A DNA stretch of 37,909 nucleotides from Ignavibacteria bacterium (GTDB lineage Bacteria; Bacteroidota; Ignavibacteria; Tepidaquicellales; OLB5): contig JANWKI010000097.1 in the NCBI GenBank assembly GCA_025451455.1, forward strand, positions 1 through 37,909, given 5' to 3'. Below, one piece after another: positions 7,676-36,122 of the stretch (within the stretch, counting starts at the first letter, position 1; every line of letters starts with the position of its first letter). The notes beneath the pieces are model-generated. The model saw only the letters and a program-made list of their open reading frames with translations, ran no database searches and was not told the DNA's origin. Position numbers and translations under genes: made by a program.

Positions 7676-8434
7676 TTATTTTATTAAAATAATTTTCTTT
7701 ATGTCTGAAAAATTCCCTGCATTCATTCTATAGAAATATACTCCGCTTGCCAGATTTGAGCCGTCAAACTCAACCGTATAGTATCCTGCATCCTGCATCT
7801 TATCCACAAGCGCAGCAACTTCCCTGCCAGTTACATCATATACTTTTATGGATATTTTCATTTGGACCGGAAGCTCATAACCTATCTTTGATTTTGGATT
7901 CGAAGGATTCGGATAGTTCTGGCCTAAAGAAAAGATGTTTGGGGGCACAATTACGACATCACTTTCCAGTTCAAAATATTCAAAAATACCGTTGTAATCT
8001 AATTGTTTAAGGCGGTATTTATATGACCCCGTTTGAAGTTTTTTATCTTCATATACGTAACTTTTGGGAGTACTAGATGTACCGTTGCCGTGTACAAAAG
8101 CAATTTTCTGCCACCCTTCGACTCCGCTCAGGGTGACACGGCGTTCAACATCAAACCCTGAATTATTCAGTTCGGCTTCCGTTATCCAGCTTAAAGCTGC
8201 ATTGTTCTTATTGACCGAAAAACTGAAAGAGGAAAGCAGAACAGGAAGCGGACCCTGGCATATTGTCCCCCCGCCCGAGTATGTTCCGTTGATTATGATA
8301 GCATCGGCACAAACATCGGCTCCCGAGCTTATATCGATCAGCGAGCCCGGATCGTATGTAATGTTGCTCTGAGAAAATTGAAAATCGCAGATTAGCAGAT
8401 TAAAGATTAAAAGAATAAATATCTTAGTTTTCAT
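7676..8434 (-). CDS. T9SS cargo, short protein with sorting domain (module 1 copy)
   Basis: A 252-residue secreted protein starting MKTKIFILLIFN; this ATG at 8434 is preferred over one 33 bp upstream because the shorter form begins directly with the signal peptide. After SNITYDPGSLIDIS and a CQGPLP stretch comes a fibronectin-like strand region (LPVLLSSFSFSVNKNNAALSW) common before T9SS sorting domains, then the sorting domain from about residue 175 (SLGQNYPNPSNP, SGVYFYRM). Between FDVERR and WQKIAF is an in-frame VTLSGVEG encoded by a palindromic repeat (8110-8140). It is a paralogue of the 11522-12349 gene and follows a paralogous S74 fibre gene in both places. Confidence 0.82.
   Translation of the reverse strand: MKTKIFILLIFNLLICDFQFSQSNITYDPGSLIDISSGADVCADAIIINGTYSGGGTICQGPLPVLLSSFSFSVNKNNAALSWITEAELNNSGFDVERRVTLSGVEGWQKIAFVHGNGTSSTPKSYVYEDKKLQTGSYKYRLKQLDYNGIFEYFELESDVVIVPPNIFSLGQNYPNPSNPKSKIGYELPVQMKISIKVYDVTGREVAALVDKMQDAGYYTVEFDGSNLASGVYFYRMNAGNFSDIKKIILIK
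8110..8140. repeat. Coding palindromic repeat encoding VTLSGVEG
   Basis: CACCCT at 8112-8117 and AGGGTG at 8130-8135 form the arms of a GC-rich inverted repeat lying wholly inside the T9SS cargo gene and kept in frame. Read on the coding strand it contains the CCTGAGCGGAGTCGAAGG core, which I know as a common dispersed repeat of Bacteroidota-type genomes. The paralogue at 11522-12349 has a different repeat at the same codon position. Confidence 0.65.
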
Positions 8435-8470: not shown

Positions 8471-9826
8471 TTATTTTGAGTGTACTGTTAAATCTGTTGA
8501 ATTCCCGGTTTCATTCGGTCTCAATTTCTCAATTTCGAGCGCAAGCATATTCTGCATTTGTTCAAACTTCGCAAGCTTGTCCTTCAGTTCATCATTTTCA
8601 GTTTCTAAGTCTTCGCATTTTGAATTCAGTTCCTGAATAGCTTTCACCATTATTGGGAGTAAGTTCCCGGGTGTAGCCTCCCACTTCTCTGGATTGTCCT
8701 TCAGAACCAGGTTAAGCCATTCGGTATTTGCTGTTGTCTGCGCTTCGTCAAGCTCCTGTGCAATAAATCCTGCCGTCGGTGATTCCTGAACCTTGCTGCC
8801 GTCTGAAATATTATCATCATACCACTCACGTTTATCCCAGTTAAACTGGCGGGGTTTGAGCTTTGCGATGAAATCCAGCCCAAGTGAAAGGTCTTTTATG
8901 TTTTTCTTATCTCGTGCATCTGAAAGGCTTGTTATTGTAGTTACATTACACCGAAGGGAAGTAATCTGGTTATTGCCAAGGGTAATCTGATTAGAAACCG
9001 TTGCAATGCTTGAGAATGCATTATAGCCGATTAGCGTATTATTGCTTCCGGTTGTAATATTATAGCCGGCTGAATCACCAACTGCAGTATTATGTATCCC
9101 CGAAGAATTAGAAAATAATGAATATGTGCCCATACCGCTGTTACTGTAACCCGTTGTATTACTAAAAAGAGATTCATATCCTATTGTCGAATTATTTGAG
9201 CCTGTGGTGTTGGTAAATAGAGAAAGTCTTCCGAATGCTGAATTATAATTACCAGTGTTGTTTTCACCTAACGAATAATCTCCGAAGGCTGAATTCTCGT
9301 CACCAGTGATGTTGTTTAACAGCGCGGCAAATCCAAATGCTGAATTATGTTTCCCTGTGGTGTTGGAAGAAAGCGAACTCAATCCGAATGCCGAATTATT
9401 ATTGCCTGTTGTGTTGGAAGATAGCGAGGAGTAACCAAATGCGCAATTACTGTATCCTGATGTTAGGCTCTGCAAAGAAAAGCAGCCCACAGCCGTATTA
9501 TAGCTTGTCGCCGCACCTACGCCGCTCATTGTAAAGTTGCCCGAATTAATCCCTATAAATGTGTTATTACCAACTGCGCCCGGGGACTGGTAATTGTGTA
9601 TAAATCTGCTTGTTCCCTTATAAATTACCCCCAGGGTTGAGTCAGAAGTGACAGGCAGCAATATATTCCTGTTCAGCGTTAAATTCCCGGTTGACTGGCT
9701 TAAAGAAAGGTATGTACTTGAGCTGTTTTTAATTGAAAATAAACCGTTTGTGCCAAGAGTGTTCGTAATGTTTTGAGAGGAAGTATGAACAATTAAGCAC
9801 ATTAGTAAAACTATTGAGAACTTCAT
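8471..9826 (-). CDS. Fibre protein with 17-residue head repeats and S74 chaperone domain
   Basis: A 451-residue exported protein (signal peptide 1-17). About nine or ten tandem 17-residue repeats of the type NxAFGxxSLxxNTTGxx (9020-9505) resemble the head repeats of trimeric adhesins and should form a trimeric beta-roll stalk. From about residue 300 is the peptidase S74 intramolecular chaperone domain (SDARDKKNI, LKPRQFNWD, GFIAQELDE), expected to assemble the trimer and cleave itself between S302 and D303. Residues 395-440 form a coiled coil. There is no T9SS sorting domain, so the surface route is unclear. AAGGGGTG precedes the ATG. First gene of the module 1 operon; paralogue at 12351-14030. 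Confidence 0.83.
   Translation of the reverse strand: MKFSIVLLMCLIVHTSSQNITNTLGTNGLFSIKNSSSTYLSLSQSTGNLTLNRNILLPVTSDSTLGVIYKGTSRFIHNYQSPGAVGNNTFIGINSGNFTMSGVGAATSYNTAVGCFSLQSLTSGYSNCAFGYSSLSSNTTGNNNSAFGLSSLSSNTTGKHNSAFGFAALLNNITGDENSAFGDYSLGENNTGNYNSAFGRLSLFTNTTGSNNSTIGYESLFSNTTGYSNSGMGTYSLFSNSSGIHNTAVGDSAGYNITTGSNNTLIGYNAFSSIATVSNQITLGNNQITSLRCNVTTITSLSDARDKKNIKDLSLGLDFIAKLKPRQFNWDKREWYDDNISDGSKVQESPTAGFIAQELDEAQTTANTEWLNLVLKDNPEKWEATPGNLLPIMVKAIQELNSKCEDLETENDELKDKLAKFEQMQNMLALEIEKLRPNETGNSTDLTVHSK
8670..8758. repeat. 89-bp block identical to 12589-12677
   Basis: The 89 bases here, coding for part of the S74 domain, are base-for-base identical to 12589-12677 in the paralogous fibre gene, whereas both flanks carry synonymous and other differences. 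This suggests recent gene conversion between the two copies or a recent duplication with local divergence. Confidence 0.8.
9020..9505 (-). repeat. 51-bp tandem coding repeats, about 9-10 units
   Basis: Degenerate 51-bp units each encode one 17-residue head repeat (NxAFGxxSLxxNTTGxx). Two adjacent units end in the identical SSLSSNTTG, showing that recent unit duplication has occurred. Confidence 0.75.
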
Positions 9827-10005: not shown

Positions 10006-11436
10006 ATGAAATCAAGCAGACTCATTCATTTTTTGAATGCTTTTACGGAAAAAGATTCAAAGGATTTTGGCAAATTCCTTCGTTCGCCATATTTCAGTGA
10101 CGGCAGAAAATATTCGTCCCTTTATGCGGAAATTGTGAAATATGGACCCGATTACCAGGATGTATCCTTATCAAAAGAAACCTTATATAAAGCAATTTTC
10201 CCCTCAAAAAGATACAATGTTCATACTATAAATACTCTGATTACCGGACTAACCGGGATGGCAAAAAAATTTACAGCTATTTCAAGTCTTACAGATGATA
10301 AAAACAGGATCAGCATTGAACACCTGAAATGGTCAAGAGAGAGGAATTTAATTAAGTACAGTAATCAGAAGGTGCAGCAGATGATAAATAAATTCAGCAA
10401 TACCGCTTTAAACGATGATGACTATTTAAGTTTGTTTGAACTGCATGATTTGCTGGCGCTCGGGCTTGGAGATGATAAGGAAAAAAACAAACGCATGTTA
10501 ATTAATTATTCAAAAACTGCATCGGCAGTGGAGAGCTTCTGCACGATCAAGATAATGAAAGCTATGACTGAAGCCAGAATGATGAATTCTTCAATGGGAG
10601 AAGATCTGAGCTGGCTTGAGGAACGATATAAATTTTTAGCGAATGAAGACCTGCTTCCGGAAGACCCGAAAATAAAACTATTGTATTATCTTTACAGCCT
10701 TTTCGCCGGCTATGATCAAAGATCAGAAGGATACTATGCCAAAATCATTAAACTGGAAAATGAATTTGATAAATACCTGTCATTTGATGATAAAGTTTTC
10801 GTTTACTGGCAAATGGAACAGTATTGCCTGAATTATGATGTCTTCAATTTGACCGCAAAATATTCAAATGAAAAATGGAGATGTACAAAAGAAATGCTTG
10901 GTGCAATGGTTAATACCAAAGACGTAATTTCCGATATCGGATACAGAAATTGTATCAGGAGGGCAGTTGCAAGAAAAGAATTTGATTTCGCGCTGTATAT
11001 TATGGATTCCCTATATGACAGAATAGATGCACACAAAGAAGATACTTATAACTACTGCAGAGCTTACTACCATCTTTATGTAAAAGAATTTGAGCTTTCC
11101 TTTCAGTATTTAAATAAATTACACCACAGCTTTTTCAGATCTCAGTTTATTGTAAAAGAATTACTGGCAATGCTGTATTTTGAAACCGGCAAATTTGAAG
11201 AGATATATTATATTATTGACAGTTACAAGCATCTGTACAAACAGAACAGGAAACTGAAATATGCCGATGTGGAGACAAAGCTTTTTATAGATTGCATTAA
11301 GTCTCTAACAATTTTCAGAACAGAAAAAAGCCCAAAAGCACTCGAAGAGATTCAGTTTTTGCTTGGAAAGGAATTCACTCCTTATAAAAACTGGTTCGAA
11401 GACAGGCTGGCAGAAATGCAAAGAAACAAATATTGA
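10006..11436 (+). CDS. Helical protein of unrecognised family (SPYF family, copy 1)
   Basis: A 476-residue, almost entirely helical soluble protein with no signal peptide or membrane segment. Its N-terminus, MKSSRLIHFLNAFTEKDSKDFGKFLRSPYFS, aligns with those of the genes at 16634 and 24025 (MKxxRLI, F-x-KF, SPYFN/SPFFN). The C-terminal half contains repeated paired helices such as CRAYYHLYVKEFELSFQYL and LLAMLYFETGKFEEIYYII, which look TPR-like. I do not recognise a function. It is the most divergent of the three copies: it lacks the PGKxFNKQVMWN motif shared by the other two. It diverges from the module 1 fibre operon and its 3' end converges on the module 2 operon. Confidence 0.75.
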   Translation: MKSSRLIHFLNAFTEKDSKDFGKFLRSPYFSDGRKYSSLYAEIVKYGPDYQDVSLSKETLYKAIFPSKRYNVHTINTLITGLTGMAKKFTAISSLTDDKNRISIEHLKWSRERNLIKYSNQKVQQMINKFSNTALNDDDYLSLFELHDLLALGLGDDKEKNKRMLINYSKTASAVESFCTIKIMKAMTEARMMNSSMGEDLSWLEERYKFLANEDLLPEDPKIKLLYYLYSLFAGYDQRSEGYYAKIIKLENEFDKYLSFDDKVFVYWQMEQYCLNYDVFNLTAKYSNEKWRCTKEMLGAMVNTKDVISDIGYRNCIRRAVARKEFDFALYIMDSLYDRIDAHKEDTYNYCRAYYHLYVKEFELSFQYLNKLHHSFFRSQFIVKELLAMLYFETGKFEEIYYIIDSYKHLYKQNRKLKYADVETKLFIDCIKSLTIFRTEKSPKALEEIQFLLGKEFTPYKNWFEDRLAEMQRNKY

Positions 11437-11482: not shown

Positions 11483-11530
11483 TTACCAATCCGTCAAAGC
11501 CGGATTTCAAAAATAACTTCGTTATTTTAT
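11483..11530. repeat. Two-hairpin repeat at convergent gene ends, copy 1
   Basis: AATCCG (11488-11493) pairs with CGGATT (11501-11506), and AAAATAAC (11510-11517) pairs with GTTATTTT (11521-11528). The second hairpin includes the stop codon of the minus-strand gene ending at 11522. The same unit is at 18121-18170 in an equivalent convergent position. It may act as a bidirectional terminator. Confidence 0.6.
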
Positions 11531-12349
11531 CAATATCATCTTTAATGTTTTGGAGAATTTCTGAGCGCCCCCTTCAACAATGATACGGTAAAAATACACC
11601 CCCGATGCAAGATTCGTGCCGTCAAACTCAGCGGAGTAATACCCCGCTAGCTTTGTTTCATTGACGATTGATACAGTCTCTTTTCCCAGAATATCATAAA
11701 GCCTGATTGTGACTTTTCCGTCCACGGGTATTTCATAATCTATCTTACTCTTCGGATTTGAGGGATTCGGGTAATTCTGACCTAAAGAAAAAACATTTGG
11801 CGGGACAATTACAACATCACTTTCCAGCTCAAAGTATTCAAAATTACCGTTGTAATCTAATTGCTTAAGGCGGTATTTGTATGAACCGGTTTGAAGTTTT
11901 TTATCTTCAAAAAAGTAACTTTTTGGGGTATTAGAAGTGCCTTCTCCTGGAATAAAAGCGATTTTCTGCCACCCAGAAGTCCCTCCTTCGGGGGGATATC
12001 GGGGGGTTTTTCTTTCAATATCAAACCCTGAATTATTCATCTCGGCCTCTGTTATCCAACTTAAAGCGGCATTGTTCTTATTTACCGAAAAAGTGAAAGA
12101 GGAAAGCAGGACAGGAAGCGGTCCCTGGCAAATTGTTCCACCGCCTGAATATGTGCCGTTGATAATAATTGCATCGGCGCAAACATCGGCTCCAGTGCTT
12201 ATATCAATCATCGAGCCGGGATCGTAAGTTATGTTGCTTTGCGCATATTGCAGATTACAGACTAGTAAATTGCATATTAAAATGATAAATATCTTAGTTT
12301 TTCCACCCAAGGCGGATTGACCCAGAGGGTGCCCCACTTCGTTCAACAT
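11522..12349 (-). CDS. T9SS cargo, short protein with sorting domain (module 2 copy)
   Basis: A 275-residue paralogue of the 7676-8434 product: the same SNITYDPGSMIDIS start of the mature protein, CQGPLP region, strand domain and sorting domain from about residue 195 (SLGQNYPNPSNP, SGVYFYRI, KTLKMILIK). Two features set it apart. The N-terminus is MLNEVGHPLGQSALGG joined to KTKIFIILICN, where the paralogue simply has M-KTKIFILLIFN, so a repeat has replaced the original start codon and lengthened the signal peptide's n-region. And KTPRYPPEGGTSG stands between FDIER and WQKIAF, where the paralogue has VTLSGVEG. The start ATG is one base after the TAA of the upstream fibre gene, implying translational coupling. 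Confidence 0.8.
   Translation of the reverse strand: MLNEVGHPLGQSALGGKTKIFIILICNLLVCNLQYAQSNITYDPGSMIDISTGADVCADAIIINGTYSGGGTICQGPLPVLLSSFTFSVNKNNAALSWITEAEMNNSGFDIERKTPRYPPEGGTSGWQKIAFIPGEGTSNTPKSYFFEDKKLQTGSYKYRLKQLDYNGNFEYFELESDVVIVPPNVFSLGQNYPNPSNPKSKIDYEIPVDGKVTIRLYDILGKETVSIVNETKLAGYYSAEFDGTNLASGVYFYRIIVEGGAQKFSKTLKMILIK
11974..12010. repeat. Coding palindromic repeat encoding TPRYPPEGGTSG
   Basis: CCCTCC (11981-11986) and GGGGGG (11990-11995) form a GC-rich stem around TTC, followed by a second G-run after GATATC. The unit is in frame inside the 11522-12349 gene at the same codon position that carries a different repeat in the paralogue. Confidence 0.6.
12303..12349. repeat. Repeat-derived new N-terminus (MLNEVGHPLGQSALGG)
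   Basis: CACCC (12304-12308) and GGGTG (12327-12331) are arms of an inverted repeat. Just downstream on the coding strand, the sequence AAAACTAAGATATTTAT matches the paralogue's second codon onward, but the paralogue's ATG is replaced here by GGA. The gene therefore now starts inside or beyond the inserted repeat. Confidence 0.55.
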
Positions 12350-12350
12350 A

Positions 12351-14030
12351 TTATTTCTCGCCTAGTTTGACCTCTTTTATGTCGCTGTCTTTTTCTTTGA
12401 GTTTTTCAATCTCACTCACAAGTATATTTTGTGTTAGTTCCAATTTTAAAAGCAATTGTTTAATCTCTTCGTTTTCACTCTTAAGTTTAACGCTTTCAAC
12501 TTTTAACTTCTCACTTTCAACCCTTATTTCATCATTCTCAGCCTTTAATTCCTGCATAGCCTTTACCATTATAGGTAGCAAGTTCCCAGGTGTAGCCTCC
12601 CACTTCTCTGGATTGTCCTTCAGAACCAGGTTAAGCCATTCGGTATTTGCTGTTGTCTGCGCTTCGTCAAGCTCCTGAGCAATAAATCCTGCAGTGGGTG
12701 TTTCCTGCATTTTGCTGCCGTCTGAAATATTATCGTCATACCACTCACGCTTATCCCAGTTGAACTGGCGGGGTTTTAGTTTGGAGATAAAATCAAGCCC
12801 AAGACTTAAATCTGCAATATTTTTCTTATCACGCATATCTGATAAAGAGGTTATTGTTGTAACATTGCAGCGGAGAGATGAAACAAATCCATTTCCAAGC
12901 GTTACCTGATCCGTTGCAGTAGGTGATGTTGGCGCTGCATCAATGCCTATGCAGGTTAAATTGGCGCCTGTGGTAATTGTAGAGCCGGCGTTAAACCCCA
13001 AGGCAGTATTATAGTTGCCGTTGTTATTGTAAAGAGAAGAATCTCCAACTGCAGTATTCTGAAAACCCACGGTATTCCAGACTAAAGTAAGGCGACCTAA
13101 AGTCGTATTACGGGTGCCCGAAGTATTATTGTACATTGAATTGTTTCCAATAACTGTATTTCGGGAACCAGTACTATTATTTACTAAAGTATTCTGTCCC
13201 ACGGCTATGTTTTCAGATCCTGTGGTATTGTACAACATGGCATAATTCCCCACGGCTATGTTAGAATTTCCCGAGCTGTTTGTATACAAAGTAGAATGGC
13301 CCAAAGCAATGTTTGAAAAACCGGAGGTGTTGGAATATAAGGTCTGAGACCCTATTGCAGTATTATAACCACCAACGGAATTGGAGAATAATGACTGATA
13401 TCCCAAAGCTGTATTTAAATTACCCGTAGAGTTAGTATTTAAAGAAAAAGAGCCCACAGCCGTGTTATTTTGGCCGATGCTGTTGGCCATTAAGGATCCT
13501 GATCCCAGAGAGGTGTTATTATTTCCGGTGGTGTTTGCAAGTAAAGAATAACGTCCCAAAGCGGTGTTGTTATTTCCGGTGGAGTTGGTGTATAAAGAAT
13601 ACCTACCCATAGCAGTGTTATAATTTCCGGTCGAGTTGGTATATAAAGAATAACTTCCCACCGCTGTGTTTTCATATCCCGTAGAATTACTGAATAAAGT
13701 ACTCTCTCCAATCGCCGTGTTAAGTACTCCTGTCATTGTAAAATTTCCGGAGTTTACACCCAGGAATGTATTTTGAGTTCCGTAGTTGTGTATGAACCTG
13801 TCCAGCCCTTTAAAAACTACTCCCGTTGTTGGGCTTGTTGTATAGGGTATACTCATGCTCCTGTTGAGCGACAAATAACCCAATGACTGACTAAGTGTCA
13901 AGTAACTTGTTGAGCCGTCTTTGATAGTGAACACGCCGCTTGTGCCAAGAGTGTTGGTAATGTTCTGCGCAATTGACAGATTCCAGATCAACAGATTGCA
14001 CATAAAAATGACGAGTATTTTGATTTTCAT
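12351..14030 (-). CDS. Fibre protein with 17-residue head repeats and S74 chaperone domain (long copy)
   Basis: A 559-residue paralogue of the 8471-9826 product. Signal peptide 1-21 (ending IAQ), short leader (ITNTLGTSGVFTIKDGSTSYLTLSQS), then about fifteen 17-residue head repeats (NTAxGxxSLYTNSTGN type, 12960-13725) against nine or ten in the other copy. The S74 chaperone domain follows (SDMRDKKNI, LKPRQFNWD, GFIAQELDE), with the predicted self-cleavage between S397 and D398, then a Lys/Glu-rich coiled coil (490-550). It should form a long trimeric surface fibre. No sorting domain is present. It lies 75 bp after the FecR-like gene in the module 2 operon. Confidence 0.83.
   Translation of the reverse strand: MKIKILVIFMCNLLIWNLSIAQNITNTLGTSGVFTIKDGSTSYLTLSQSLGYLSLNRSMSIPYTTSPTTGVVFKGLDRFIHNYGTQNTFLGVNSGNFTMTGVLNTAIGESTLFSNSTGYENTAVGSYSLYTNSTGNYNTAMGRYSLYTNSTGNNNTALGRYSLLANTTGNNNTSLGSGSLMANSIGQNNTAVGSFSLNTNSTGNLNTALGYQSLFSNSVGGYNTAIGSQTLYSNTSGFSNIALGHSTLYTNSSGNSNIAVGNYAMLYNTTGSENIAVGQNTLVNNSTGSRNTVIGNNSMYNNTSGTRNTTLGRLTLVWNTVGFQNTAVGDSSLYNNNGNYNTALGFNAGSTITTGANLTCIGIDAAPTSPTATDQVTLGNGFVSSLRCNVTTITSLSDMRDKKNIADLSLGLDFISKLKPRQFNWDKREWYDDNISDGSKMQETPTAGFIAQELDEAQTTANTEWLNLVLKDNPEKWEATPGNLLPIMVKAMQELKAENDEIRVESEKLKVESVKLKSENEEIKQLLLKLELTQNILVSEIEKLKEKDSDIKEVKLGEK
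12589..12677. repeat. 89-bp block identical to 8670-8758
   Basis: This is the second copy of the identical S74-domain segment; the flanking bases differ at both ends. Confidence 0.8.
12960..13725 (-). repeat. 51-bp tandem coding repeats, about 15 units
   Basis: The 17-residue head repeats of the long fibre protein are encoded by 51-bp units. Units in 13500-13700 are most alike (SYSLYTNSTGN, RYSLYTNSTGN), suggesting recent expansion there. Confidence 0.75.
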
Positions 14031-18120: not shown

Positions 18121-18170
18121 TTACCAATCCGTCAAAGCCGGATTTCAAAAATAGCTTCCCTATTTTATTA
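18121..18170. repeat. Two-hairpin repeat at convergent gene ends, copy 2
   Basis: AATCCG (18126-18131) pairs with CGGATT (18139-18144), and AAAATAG (18148-18154) pairs with CTATTTT (18160-18166). Compared with copy 1 the second stem changes A-T to G-C, a compensatory change that argues for conserved structure. It again contains the stop codon of the minus-strand gene. Confidence 0.6.
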
Positions 18171-20316
18171 ATACCATCTTCTTAGTTTCGGTATAGCTGC
18201 CGGCAGCCAGCCTGTAAAAATAAAGCCCCGAGGGCATTTGTGATGCATTCCAGTTAATTTCATATGTGCCCGGCGAAAGTTCTTCATCAACAAGTATTGC
18301 AACTTCGCGGCCAAGGATATCGTAAACAGTCAACCTCACCCCCAGCCCCTCTCCGAAGGAGAGGGGAGTGGCTGGGATTGAAAATTTTATTTTTGTTGAA
18401 GGATTGAAAGGGTTGGGGTAATTCTGCTGAAGTGAAAAATATTCCGGAATATTATTGTTGAGTGTCTGCACATTTGTAATTGCGCCTCCATTAGTGGTCT
18501 TTAATATCATTGCGCCTGAACCTATAATAAATCCTGTTACTGAATCAGTAAAAGTCATACTATAAGCCGCATTGTTTGTTCCGGTATTCAAATTGGTCCA
18601 GTTCAGGCCTCCATCGGTTGTCCTTTTACACATCGCCTCTCCGTCCCAAAGTCCAGCTCCGTAACCTGTATTTGCATTCCTGAAATATATTGTCCTGAAA
18701 CTTCCTGCAACAGCATTCACAAGGCTCCAGTTTGCTCCGGCATTGGTGGTTTTCAAAAAATTTCCCTGGAGACATGATGCAAATCCCGTATTTTGATCGA
18801 TGAAGAAAATATCACCTATTGACTGGGTTACACCTGAAACCTGCTGAACCCAGTTCACTCCCGAATTCGTTGTTGCAAGAATGTTTAATGAATTTGTGAG
18901 TATATAACCATTATTAACACTTGAAAAATATATCCTGCCGAAAGTCTGAGATGCAAATCCAGTATTAATTGTTACCCAGTTTGTACCGGCATTTGTTGTT
19001 TTAATAATCAGTCCGTTAAAAGCACAAGCAGCAAACCCTGTGTTTTGGTTTACAAAAACAAGATTTACTAATTGTTCTGAAACACCTGTTGTCAGAGTAT
19101 TCCAGTTTTCGCCGCCATCGGTTGTTTTGTAGATAATGTTGCTGAAAGTTGTAAAATAACCGGTGTTGTTATCCGTAAACTGAACGGATGATATATTTGA
19201 GTTAGTCGCAGGGGTTACGGTAATCCAGGTATTCCCCCCGTTTGTAGTTTTTAGCATAATGCCCGCAGATAGCCCTGCGTAACCCGTATTAGAAGAAGGA
19301 AAGCTGAGAGAAAAACCGTTTGAGTTTGTTCCCCCGAATAGAGGAGTCCAGTTAGTACCGCCGTTAATTGTAATTAACTGAGTGCCGTAATTCCCTGTAA
19401 TGATACCTTTGTTTACATCAAGGAAACAAATGCTCTTTAAGCTGTTTGAATTCGCCTCCGCAAGTATGCTAAAGCTCCAGTTGACCCCGCCGTTAGTGGT
19501 TGAGAGAAATCTTGCATTGTCTGAAACAGCATAAACATTCTGCATGTCCAGCGCAAAGATCTTATTTATTGATTGTGTAATGCCTGAAGCAAGTATGCTC
19601 CAGTTTACTCCTGCATTAGTTGTCTTCACTATTTTTCCCTGGAATCCGGCAGCAAATCCGTTATTGTCATCAACAAAGTAAATGGAATTTAAAGGAGTGG
19701 CAAGCCCTGTTGGTTGTGCTGACCAGTTCGCACCCCCGTTAGTTGTTTTGTACACATCACCTGAGGAACCGGCAATGTAACCGGTTAATGCAGAAGAGAA
19801 ACAAATTCCATATAAATTTACAATTCCTCCAACACTCAGCATATCCCAGTTTGCCCCGCCATTGGTCGTTTGCATCAATACTCCCACAGAACCGCAGACA
19901 AAACCTGTATTAACATCAATGAAGTGTATACCATAAGGACTCCCGCCGGAATTTATTATTGTCTCTGTCCAGTTTATCCCGCCATTGGTGGTTTTTAATA
20001 CTAACCATGTATTAAACCCTCCTGTTATAAATCCCGTATTTGCATTCAGAAATGAAATTGATTTCAGGTCTTCAGTTGTCGGGGAGGACTGGCTTATCCA
20101 GTTCAAACCGCCGTTTGTAGTTTTCAGAATTGTGCCGTAATTCCCAGCTGAATAACCTGTACTTGTTCCAATGAACTCAATATCATTTAAGCTGTTGCAC
20201 TGCGGAACCGGGTTTTGAGTTACCCAGACGGGCTGAGAGAATGAAACCGAAATTAAAAAAGCTGTTAATAGAACTGTGAGAAAAAGTCGTTTTATGGATG
20301 TTATTTTATTATTCAT
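18160..20316 (-). CDS. T9SS cargo: large YCF48-like propeller protein
   Basis: A 718-residue secreted protein (signal peptide about 1-27). It has roughly thirteen repeats of about 45 residues with KTTNGGxNW or KTTNAGxNW turns and DxNTGFxxG / SxNTGYxxG strands, as in YCF48/Hcf136-like propellers; two propellers are possible. The T9SS sorting domain starts near residue 630 (SLQQNYPNPFNPSTKIKF) and ends KKMVLIK. It is interrupted between KFSIP and VRLTVYDILGREV by ATPLSFGEGLG, encoded by a palindromic repeat (18334-18376), without loss of frame. Last gene of the module 3 operon. Confidence 0.85.
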   Translation of the reverse strand: MNNKITSIKRLFLTVLLTAFLISVSFSQPVWVTQNPVPQCNSLNDIEFIGTSTGYSAGNYGTILKTTNGGLNWISQSSPTTEDLKSISFLNANTGFITGGFNTWLVLKTTNGGINWTETIINSGGSPYGIHFIDVNTGFVCGSVGVLMQTTNGGANWDMLSVGGIVNLYGICFSSALTGYIAGSSGDVYKTTNGGANWSAQPTGLATPLNSIYFVDDNNGFAAGFQGKIVKTTNAGVNWSILASGITQSINKIFALDMQNVYAVSDNARFLSTTNGGVNWSFSILAEANSNSLKSICFLDVNKGIITGNYGTQLITINGGTNWTPLFGGTNSNGFSLSFPSSNTGYAGLSAGIMLKTTNGGNTWITVTPATNSNISSVQFTDNNTGYFTTFSNIIYKTTDGGENWNTLTTGVSEQLVNLVFVNQNTGFAACAFNGLIIKTTNAGTNWVTINTGFASQTFGRIYFSSVNNGYILTNSLNILATTNSGVNWVQQVSGVTQSIGDIFFIDQNTGFASCLQGNFLKTTNAGANWSLVNAVAGSFRTIYFRNANTGYGAGLWDGEAMCKRTTDGGLNWTNLNTGTNNAAYSMTFTDSVTGFIIGSGAMILKTTNGGAITNVQTLNNNIPEYFSLQQNYPNPFNPSTKIKFSIPATPLSFGEGLGVRLTVYDILGREVAILVDEELSPGTYEINWNASQMPSGLYFYRLAAGSYTETKKMVLIK
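18334..18376. repeat. Coding palindromic repeat encoding PLSFGEGLG
   Basis: CCCCTCTCC (18346-18354) and GGAGAGGGG (18358-18366) form a perfect nine-base stem around GAA, with outer arms CCCAGCC (18341-18347) and GGCTGGG (18370-18376). The unit lies in frame inside a T9SS sorting domain. This CCCCTCTCC-GAAGGAG type is, from general experience, a widespread dispersed repeat in Bacteroidota-like genomes. Confidence 0.7.
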
Positions 20317-35948: not shown

Positions 35949-36122
35949 AAACGCGGGACCAGCAAAAAGCGCTGGAACGTGAGACGTCAAACGTCAAACG
36001 TCAAAAGGAAAAAGTAAAAAAGCAAAAATCAAAACCAAATTTTGGAACCATGGTTCAGGGTTTAGTCAACAAAAGACTGAAATAAAATAAATACAATATA
36101 AATTCAAGGAGACAAAATAAAG
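35949..36122. other. ribF-rpsO intergenic region with short repeats
   Basis: Contains three tandem ACGTCAA units (35984-36004), a CCAGC/GCTGG hairpin (35959-35975) and the perfect palindrome GAACCATGGTTC (36045-36056). The AAGGAGACAAAA before rpsO is a strong ribosome-binding site. The tandem unit looks like a dispersed low-complexity repeat; the palindrome could be regulatory. Confidence 0.45.

Follow-up and report, generated by a model that had tools for sequence, protein, structure and literature searches.

Dispersed hairpin-forming repeats lie in frame at recurrent turns of T9SS-exported proteins in Ignavibacteria

Palindromic repeats known from coding sequence

The Rickettsia palindromic elements (RPEs; Ogata et al. 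2000, 2002) are palindromes of 105 to 146 bp (PMC2229807) that lie between genes and in frame within protein genes, where the product tolerates them, and their insertions are reported in many different genes (PMC2229807, PMC3733652). The GTAG and CGTC REPs are shorter hairpins of 20–40 nt with TGTC/CGTC or GTAG ends, which form head-to-head pairs and are also found as in-frame copies in ORFs (Di Nocera et al. 2013, PMC3733652). In the GTAG type, the tag stands at one end of a GC-rich hairpin. CGTC-1 to 4 follow a set of rules, with a CGTC, TGTC or CCTC end, a stem of 8–9 bp with A-T pairs at the first and second positions, a loop of 4–5 nt and a CCA tail, and CGTC-type repeats are reported to have, as a rule, no transposase of their own (PMC3733652). 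In recB of two Xanthomonas species, different REPs are located at about the same site (PMC3733652).

We analyzed a stretch of 37,909 nt (the window), which is contig 97 of genome G000, a 2.3-Mb MAG from an Ignavibacteria bacterium that consists of 164 contigs and is 64% complete. An initial sequence-only reading of the window claimed that two paralogous genes carry two different palindromes, in frame, at the same codon position. Both inserts are present between FD[VI]ER and WQKIAF, where the 7676 gene reads FDVER-RVTLSGVEG-WQKIAF (repeat A) and the 11522 gene reads FDIER-KTPRYPPEGGTSG-WQKIAF (repeat B). A third paralogue, C10, has repeat A at the codon position identical to that in the 7676 gene. 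The features of the window are collected in Table 1.

Table 1. Repeats and the genes that carry them in the window
Feature	Position	Strand	Remarks
T9SS-exported protein gene (7676 gene)	7676..8434	-	252 aa from ATG; signal peptide, FnIII-like domain and type A sorting domain; repeat A inside
Repeat A, 27 nt, TGTCACCCTGAGCGGAGTCGAAGGGTG	8112..8138	-	in frame; VTLSGVEG codons at 8114-8137
In-paralogue of the 7676 gene (11522 gene)	11522..12349	-	275 aa; repeat B at the same codon position as A
Repeat B region, CCCCCCGATATCCCCCCGAAGGAGGGACTT plus edges	11972..12007	-	in frame; encodes TPRYPPEGGTSG
Dispersed repeat GGGNACCCTCTGGGTCA	12318..12334	-	5 genome copies; forms part of MLNEVGHPLGQSALGG, the new N-terminus encoded by the 11522 gene
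T9SS protein gene (18160 gene)	18160..20316	-	718 aa; YCF48-like repeats; tail with third palindrome
Perfect C-like hairpin, CCCCTCTCCTTCGGAGAGGGG	18346..18366	-	turn 1 of the T9SS tail of the 18160 gene (PATPLSFGEGLGV)

The sequence-only reading had likened the inserts to the RPEs, and the general resemblance stands, with in-frame coding palindromes in both cases. As described for RPEs, repeat A and the family of a further repeat, element C, occur both between genes and in frame inside genes, and B does so weakly. The likeness does not extend to length, which is 27 nt for A, about 33 nt for B and 36–63 nt for the C family (20–63 nt overall), as opposed to the 105–146 bp given for RPEs (PMC2229807). 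Further, whereas RPE insertions are described from many different genes, the inserts here return to the same small number of turns in a single protein family, with native residues replaced. Our best reading is that these repeats would work like RPEs but are probably not members, a separation drawn from length.

Compared with the REPs, repeat A shares the TGTC end of the CGTC type but lacks the stem rules given for CGTC-1 to 4 in the text of PMC3733652; most A copies begin with TGTC, and in A this is followed by ACCC. Unlike GTAG REPs, A begins TGTC and C begins ATT, although three other inserts in sorting-domain tails do start with GTAG (GTAGGGAACGATCGCGATCGTTCC, GTAGAGACGTCCCGGCGGGACG and GTAGGGGTTGCATACATGCGACCC). 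Element C also differs from REPs in that it is made of two hairpins with a variable middle. Finally, while the recB example involves two species, here different repeats occupy one site in paralogues of a single genome.

The STRR heptanucleotide repeats of cyanobacteria are 7-nt tandem units scattered in noncoding DNA. The TAACTGA repeats of Beggiatoaceae are built and distributed in the same way (PMC4679880). In contrast to both, Ignavibacteria heptads also occupy coding sequence, being in frame at tail turn 1 and within the FnIII-like loop of T9SS proteins. In-frame REPs are already known, and what is new is that the same turns serve as hot spots time and again; the open-licence literature yielded nothing on T9SS together with palindromes or REPs, and we found no account, for single genomes or across several, of a protein family whose same turns have repeatedly captured many unrelated repeats.

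Repeats A and B in the FnIII-like loop

A T9SS type A sorting domain (Por_Secre_tail / TIGR04183, above cut-off) forms the C-terminal end of both the 7676 and the 11522 protein, and an Rfam scan of the window matched no family. The gene upstream of each paralogue, encoding a repeat-rich surface protein (8471-9826 and 12351-14030), is duplicated as well, so the tandemly duplicated unit has two genes. The start of the 11522 gene has a history of its own: its N-terminus (12301-12349) derives from the dispersed repeat GGGNACCCTCTGGGTCA, which took the place of the start codon region seen in the in-paralogue (ATTATGAAAACTAAG), and the new ATG is just upstream.

Copies were counted by pattern searches and in a 344-kb genome sample enriched in T9SS genes. 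With up to 2 mismatches allowed, the 20-nt core of repeat A has 10 matches in the 2.3-Mb genome and its reversed control has 0. Two of these copies are in the FnIII-like loop (the window and C10), two occupy the last turn of T9SS tails in frame (C25 and C106), and the other six are in neither place and not in a long frame. Four A copies in both orientations lie within ~520 bp near a contig end (G000:C162:695-1216). Across the class Ignavibacteria, A was found in 31 of 149 genomes, with up to 50 copies. The 20-mer of repeat B has a single match in G000 at up to 3 mismatches and three matches at 1 mismatch across the 149 genomes, all of them in this FnIII-like loop. Elsewhere in the genome (L220:6688) lies an intergenic palindrome, CCCCCTAAATCCCCC...AAGGGGGACTTTT (CCCCCTAAATCCCCCTTCTCAAGGGGGACTTTT), of which B is a variant. 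The copy number of A exceeds what chance would give; B in its present form is single copy in this genome.

The AlphaFold2 model of the 7676 protein has a mean pLDDT of 81.6, with most of the folded part above 90, and Foldseek searches with it returned FnIII pairs and PorU. In this model the repeat A insert forms residues 101-108, between strands 78-100 and 109-120. The tolerant surface loop presumed at the outset is here a turn that connects two strands of a domain predicted to be fibronectin-like. For a T9SS tail that bears both C and A, the model (mean pLDDT 90.1) positions the inserts in gaps 25-35 and 85-90, again between strands, such that all three insert sites are predicted to fall between strands.

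To compare the loop across relatives we used 103 distinct loops, collected with a pattern favouring recognisable homologues. Nearly half are 5–8 residues long. B-type sequences occupy the site in four relatives (L045/G026, L048, L133/G137 and L187/G046), a decayed A occupies it in L042 (20/27 identical, z 7), and other palindromes fill longer loops in L117 and L146. The RTTQSGTAD loop of G142 (L126) may be another decayed A (17/27, z 4.6). The remaining longer loops hold either 7-nt tandem arrays or no recognisable repeat. Measured against codon shuffles, the DNA of loops of at least 9 residues has a period of 7 (z 13.4) and of 14 (z 8.9), and shorter loops show nothing of the kind. Period-7 arrays number 46 in the 1.38 Mb of DNA sampled, as compared with 0–11 for periods 5, 6 and 8–11, and 30 of the 42 distinct arrays fall outside long frames. 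Ignavibacteria DNA has such arrays at many scattered places, and T9SS proteins contain them in frame; an intergenic array of ACGTCAA units is present in the window at 35976-36007.

The inserted residues are not ancestral, as the syntenic orthologue pair of G142 has KALKNKAA and RTTQSGTAD and the orthologue of C10 has RLSKDGDN. Loops that bear A have 9 residues versus 8 in orthologues, and the repeat replaces native loop residues. When the loop was compared with paralogues and orthologues for an empty site and a target duplication, as the sequence-only reading had suggested, neither a clean empty site nor a target-site duplication was found; native residues are lost at the site.

In trees of the FnIII-like genes for which the loop was removed before alignment columns were used, the 7676 and 11522 genes are in-paralogues (support 93/92) that adjoin the syntenic pair of G142, and C10 pairs with the G142 gene having RLSKDGDN. 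At least one of the two in-paralogues changed its loop after the duplication. A single clade for the five B carriers is rejected (p-AU 0.00101), which means that this site gained B on more than one occasion. A single clade for the two A carriers, 7676 and C10, is not clearly rejected (p-AU 0.065), and we therefore make no claim of two A insertions in these genes. Sequence identity between them continues ~17 nt beyond repeat A, and the A that they have in common could be old or could have moved by gene conversion. In the B gene, the GGG ahead of the TGG codon could be left over from A. Of the original proposal of independent insertion or replacement at one site, repeated acquisition and the exchange of repeats between in-paralogues hold up, and the mark of a target duplication was not seen.

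Element C and the turns of the sorting domain

The genome gave at least 150 scored matches to the T9SS tail, and 93 tails were sampled. Sixty of the 93 have the plain 83-residue length, and the longer ones hold inserts at two turns. The occupants of turn 1 are element C, the C-like hairpin of the 18160 gene and the three GTAG-tagged palindromes, and those of turn 2 are A in opposite orientation and related strings. A family of tails with KDSRLT at turn 1 (L225:2198-2225 and others) owes that turn to heptads, which thus enter tail turns in this genome too.

Element C, with the full structure ATT-CCCCTCTYGAGAGGGG-TG-variable hairpin-CGGGGTGTG, sits in nine tails of this genome. Among 15 genomes of the family, a pattern for C recovered 30 copies, which are spread over 8 species and all lie at tail turn 1 in the same frame and on the same strand. 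On a tree of 96 tails, the 8 C carriers require 7 changes, tail trees being poorly resolved; by the tree tests, C as well as B was acquired on separate occasions. Stem position 19/27 of C is T-A, C-G, A-T or G-C with no broken pair, and the hairpin has three compensatory pair changes, in which one side is synonymous for Gly and the other replaces Ser with Pro, Thr or Ala. Since pairing persists even where an amino acid is altered, what is preserved is the nucleic-acid hairpin itself, through selection or template switching.

Copies of the first palindrome of C are scattered over 15 sites in the genome, 9 of them in tails and 6 noncoding. Within the C family, every coding copy measures 36 or 42 nt and, bar one in a different 871-aa frame (L303), lies in a T9SS tail. 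The noncoding copies, 22 in a sample from three genomes that is not exhaustive, are 37–63 nt. The difference in length is strong (Fisher 2.7e-9), but the test is partly built into the definition of coding, since a frameshifted tail would not be recognisable by its frame. Divided by 3, the noncoding lengths leave remainder 0 in 5 copies, 1 in 9 and 2 in 8, and a search for tail motifs in the flanks of the 22 copies found no frameshifted tails. C-family copies also form inverted pairs ~16 bp apart, reminiscent of REP dimers (L325, L329, L335 and L336).

Entry and persistence of the repeats

The genome has four Y1_Tnp genes (PF01797, RAYT-type). Like REPtrons and their RAYTs, each has its own palindromes nearby, and two of the four carry these in frame inside the transposase gene. 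RAYT-type genes with their own flanking REP in coding sequence are found at L123 and L124 (G000:C104 and C122; NESAVGDDLRVVLQDID; KKETGLRPVSTEVSK), and a RAYT's GAGACAGGTC..GACCTGTCTC REP lies in frame in an unrelated ORF (ISGETGPRPVSTESLDVF) at L230:11030-11052 (10923-10945 in the sampled piece). None of the four genes is flanked by A, B or the 36-mer of C in this 64% complete assembly.

We consider it probable, though well short of certain, that REP-like elements were acquired separately many times and kept only in frame at tolerant turns. We hypothesize that several small, dispersed, hairpin-forming elements of this kind entered genes of the T9SS family on many separate occasions, by insertion or by hairpin-templated copying. 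The GTAG-tagged REPs would have been moved by the genome's RAYT-type transposases, and A, B and C by some other enzyme or by template switching at short matches. The inserts would be nearly neutral at first and would survive only where the reading frame was kept and an exposed beta-hairpin turn was hit, which would cause unrelated elements to gather at few turns, namely one FnIII-like loop and two sorting-domain turns. A newer element could displace an older one in a turn, which would explain A and B in the two in-paralogues. Later, the DNA palindrome would decay while the peptide may stay, as in L187, where the B-type peptide LNQPEGGSSE is kept though the palindrome has decayed.

The pattern is wider than two palindromes at one site, involving at least three T9SS turns and several repeat families, including non-palindromic heptad arrays, and the spread of repeat DNA seems to be altering, over and over, the loops of this bacterium's secreted proteins. 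The T9SS tails, which tolerate inserts at two defined turns, provide a natural experiment on how spreading hairpin DNA becomes protein sequence, carried out many times over in one genome. With ~150 paralogous sorting domains per genome, mostly empty, the rate of coding REPs, the frame sieve, decay and possible domestication are measurable. For annotation, VTLSGVEG, DPSTSLRV and PLSRGVSEGRGV in Ignavibacteria proteins should be read as translated repeats.

An alternative that we view as possible but doubtful is recombination between paralogues, in which one entry was followed by short gene-conversion tracts that copied the insert to the same position in other T9SS genes. The 36-nt form of C is known only from tails, in constant frame and strand, which suggests tail-to-tail transfer and is poorly predicted by random insertion followed by a sieve. 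About 150 tails per genome have a common conserved upstream block, which, like the identity of 7676 and C10 beyond repeat A, is in keeping with this alternative. The edges of C argue the other way: the 8 copies of the 36-nt form in G000 are 96% identical inside, yet identity in the adjoining 10 nt falls to 68% and 48%, the latter downstream, and carriers differ at the 3′ junction (VSLIIYD vs VLTKIIIYD). In addition, C, C-like, GTAG-tagged and heptad inserts are found in the same turn, which one insertion plus conversion cannot yield. We also considered homing of C to tails, given that the 36-mer is found nowhere else; this idea is weakened by the dispersed first palindrome and by noncoding copies with other, longer middle hairpins.

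We hold just as tentatively that T9SS beta-turns could be a standing entry port for hairpin DNA, with edge-matching elements replacing the turn by copying between short matches. Element C starts ATTCCC, encoding Ile-Pro, and ends in a Val codon; the native turn is I-P-xxxx-V, and the residues between are gone. This match of the ends to the turn edges, together with the loss of native residues, suggests that replacement may have taken place between short matches. If the turns do act as entry ports, turn-swapping would diversify the whole set of secreted proteins and one element could displace another.

Selection for the hairpin or the peptide, for example as an RNA structure that tunes the translation or decay of the mRNA, or as a loop that aids export, seems to us distinctly improbable as compared with separate acquisition and a frame sieve. 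Compensatory changes that alter the amino acid and the retained peptide of L187 are what it would predict, but template switching alone can correct hairpin pairs, most tails have no insert (60 of the 93 being plain), and the same turn holds unrelated repeats with unrelated peptides. Ordinary loop variation, with A and B as ancestral or convergent residues instead of repeats, is very hard to credit: natural loops do range from 5 to 21 residues and some 12-residue loops are conserved within clades without repeats, but this account is already contradicted by copy number and phylogeny, with A multicopy outside genes and both A and B absent from orthologues, and protein selection would not be expected to produce the 7-nt period of long loops. 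Least credible of all is an artefact of assembly or binning, to which a fragmented MAG like G000 is open, given that the same inserts are found in matching frames in the genomes of other species, including G016 (2 contigs) and G046 (few contigs).
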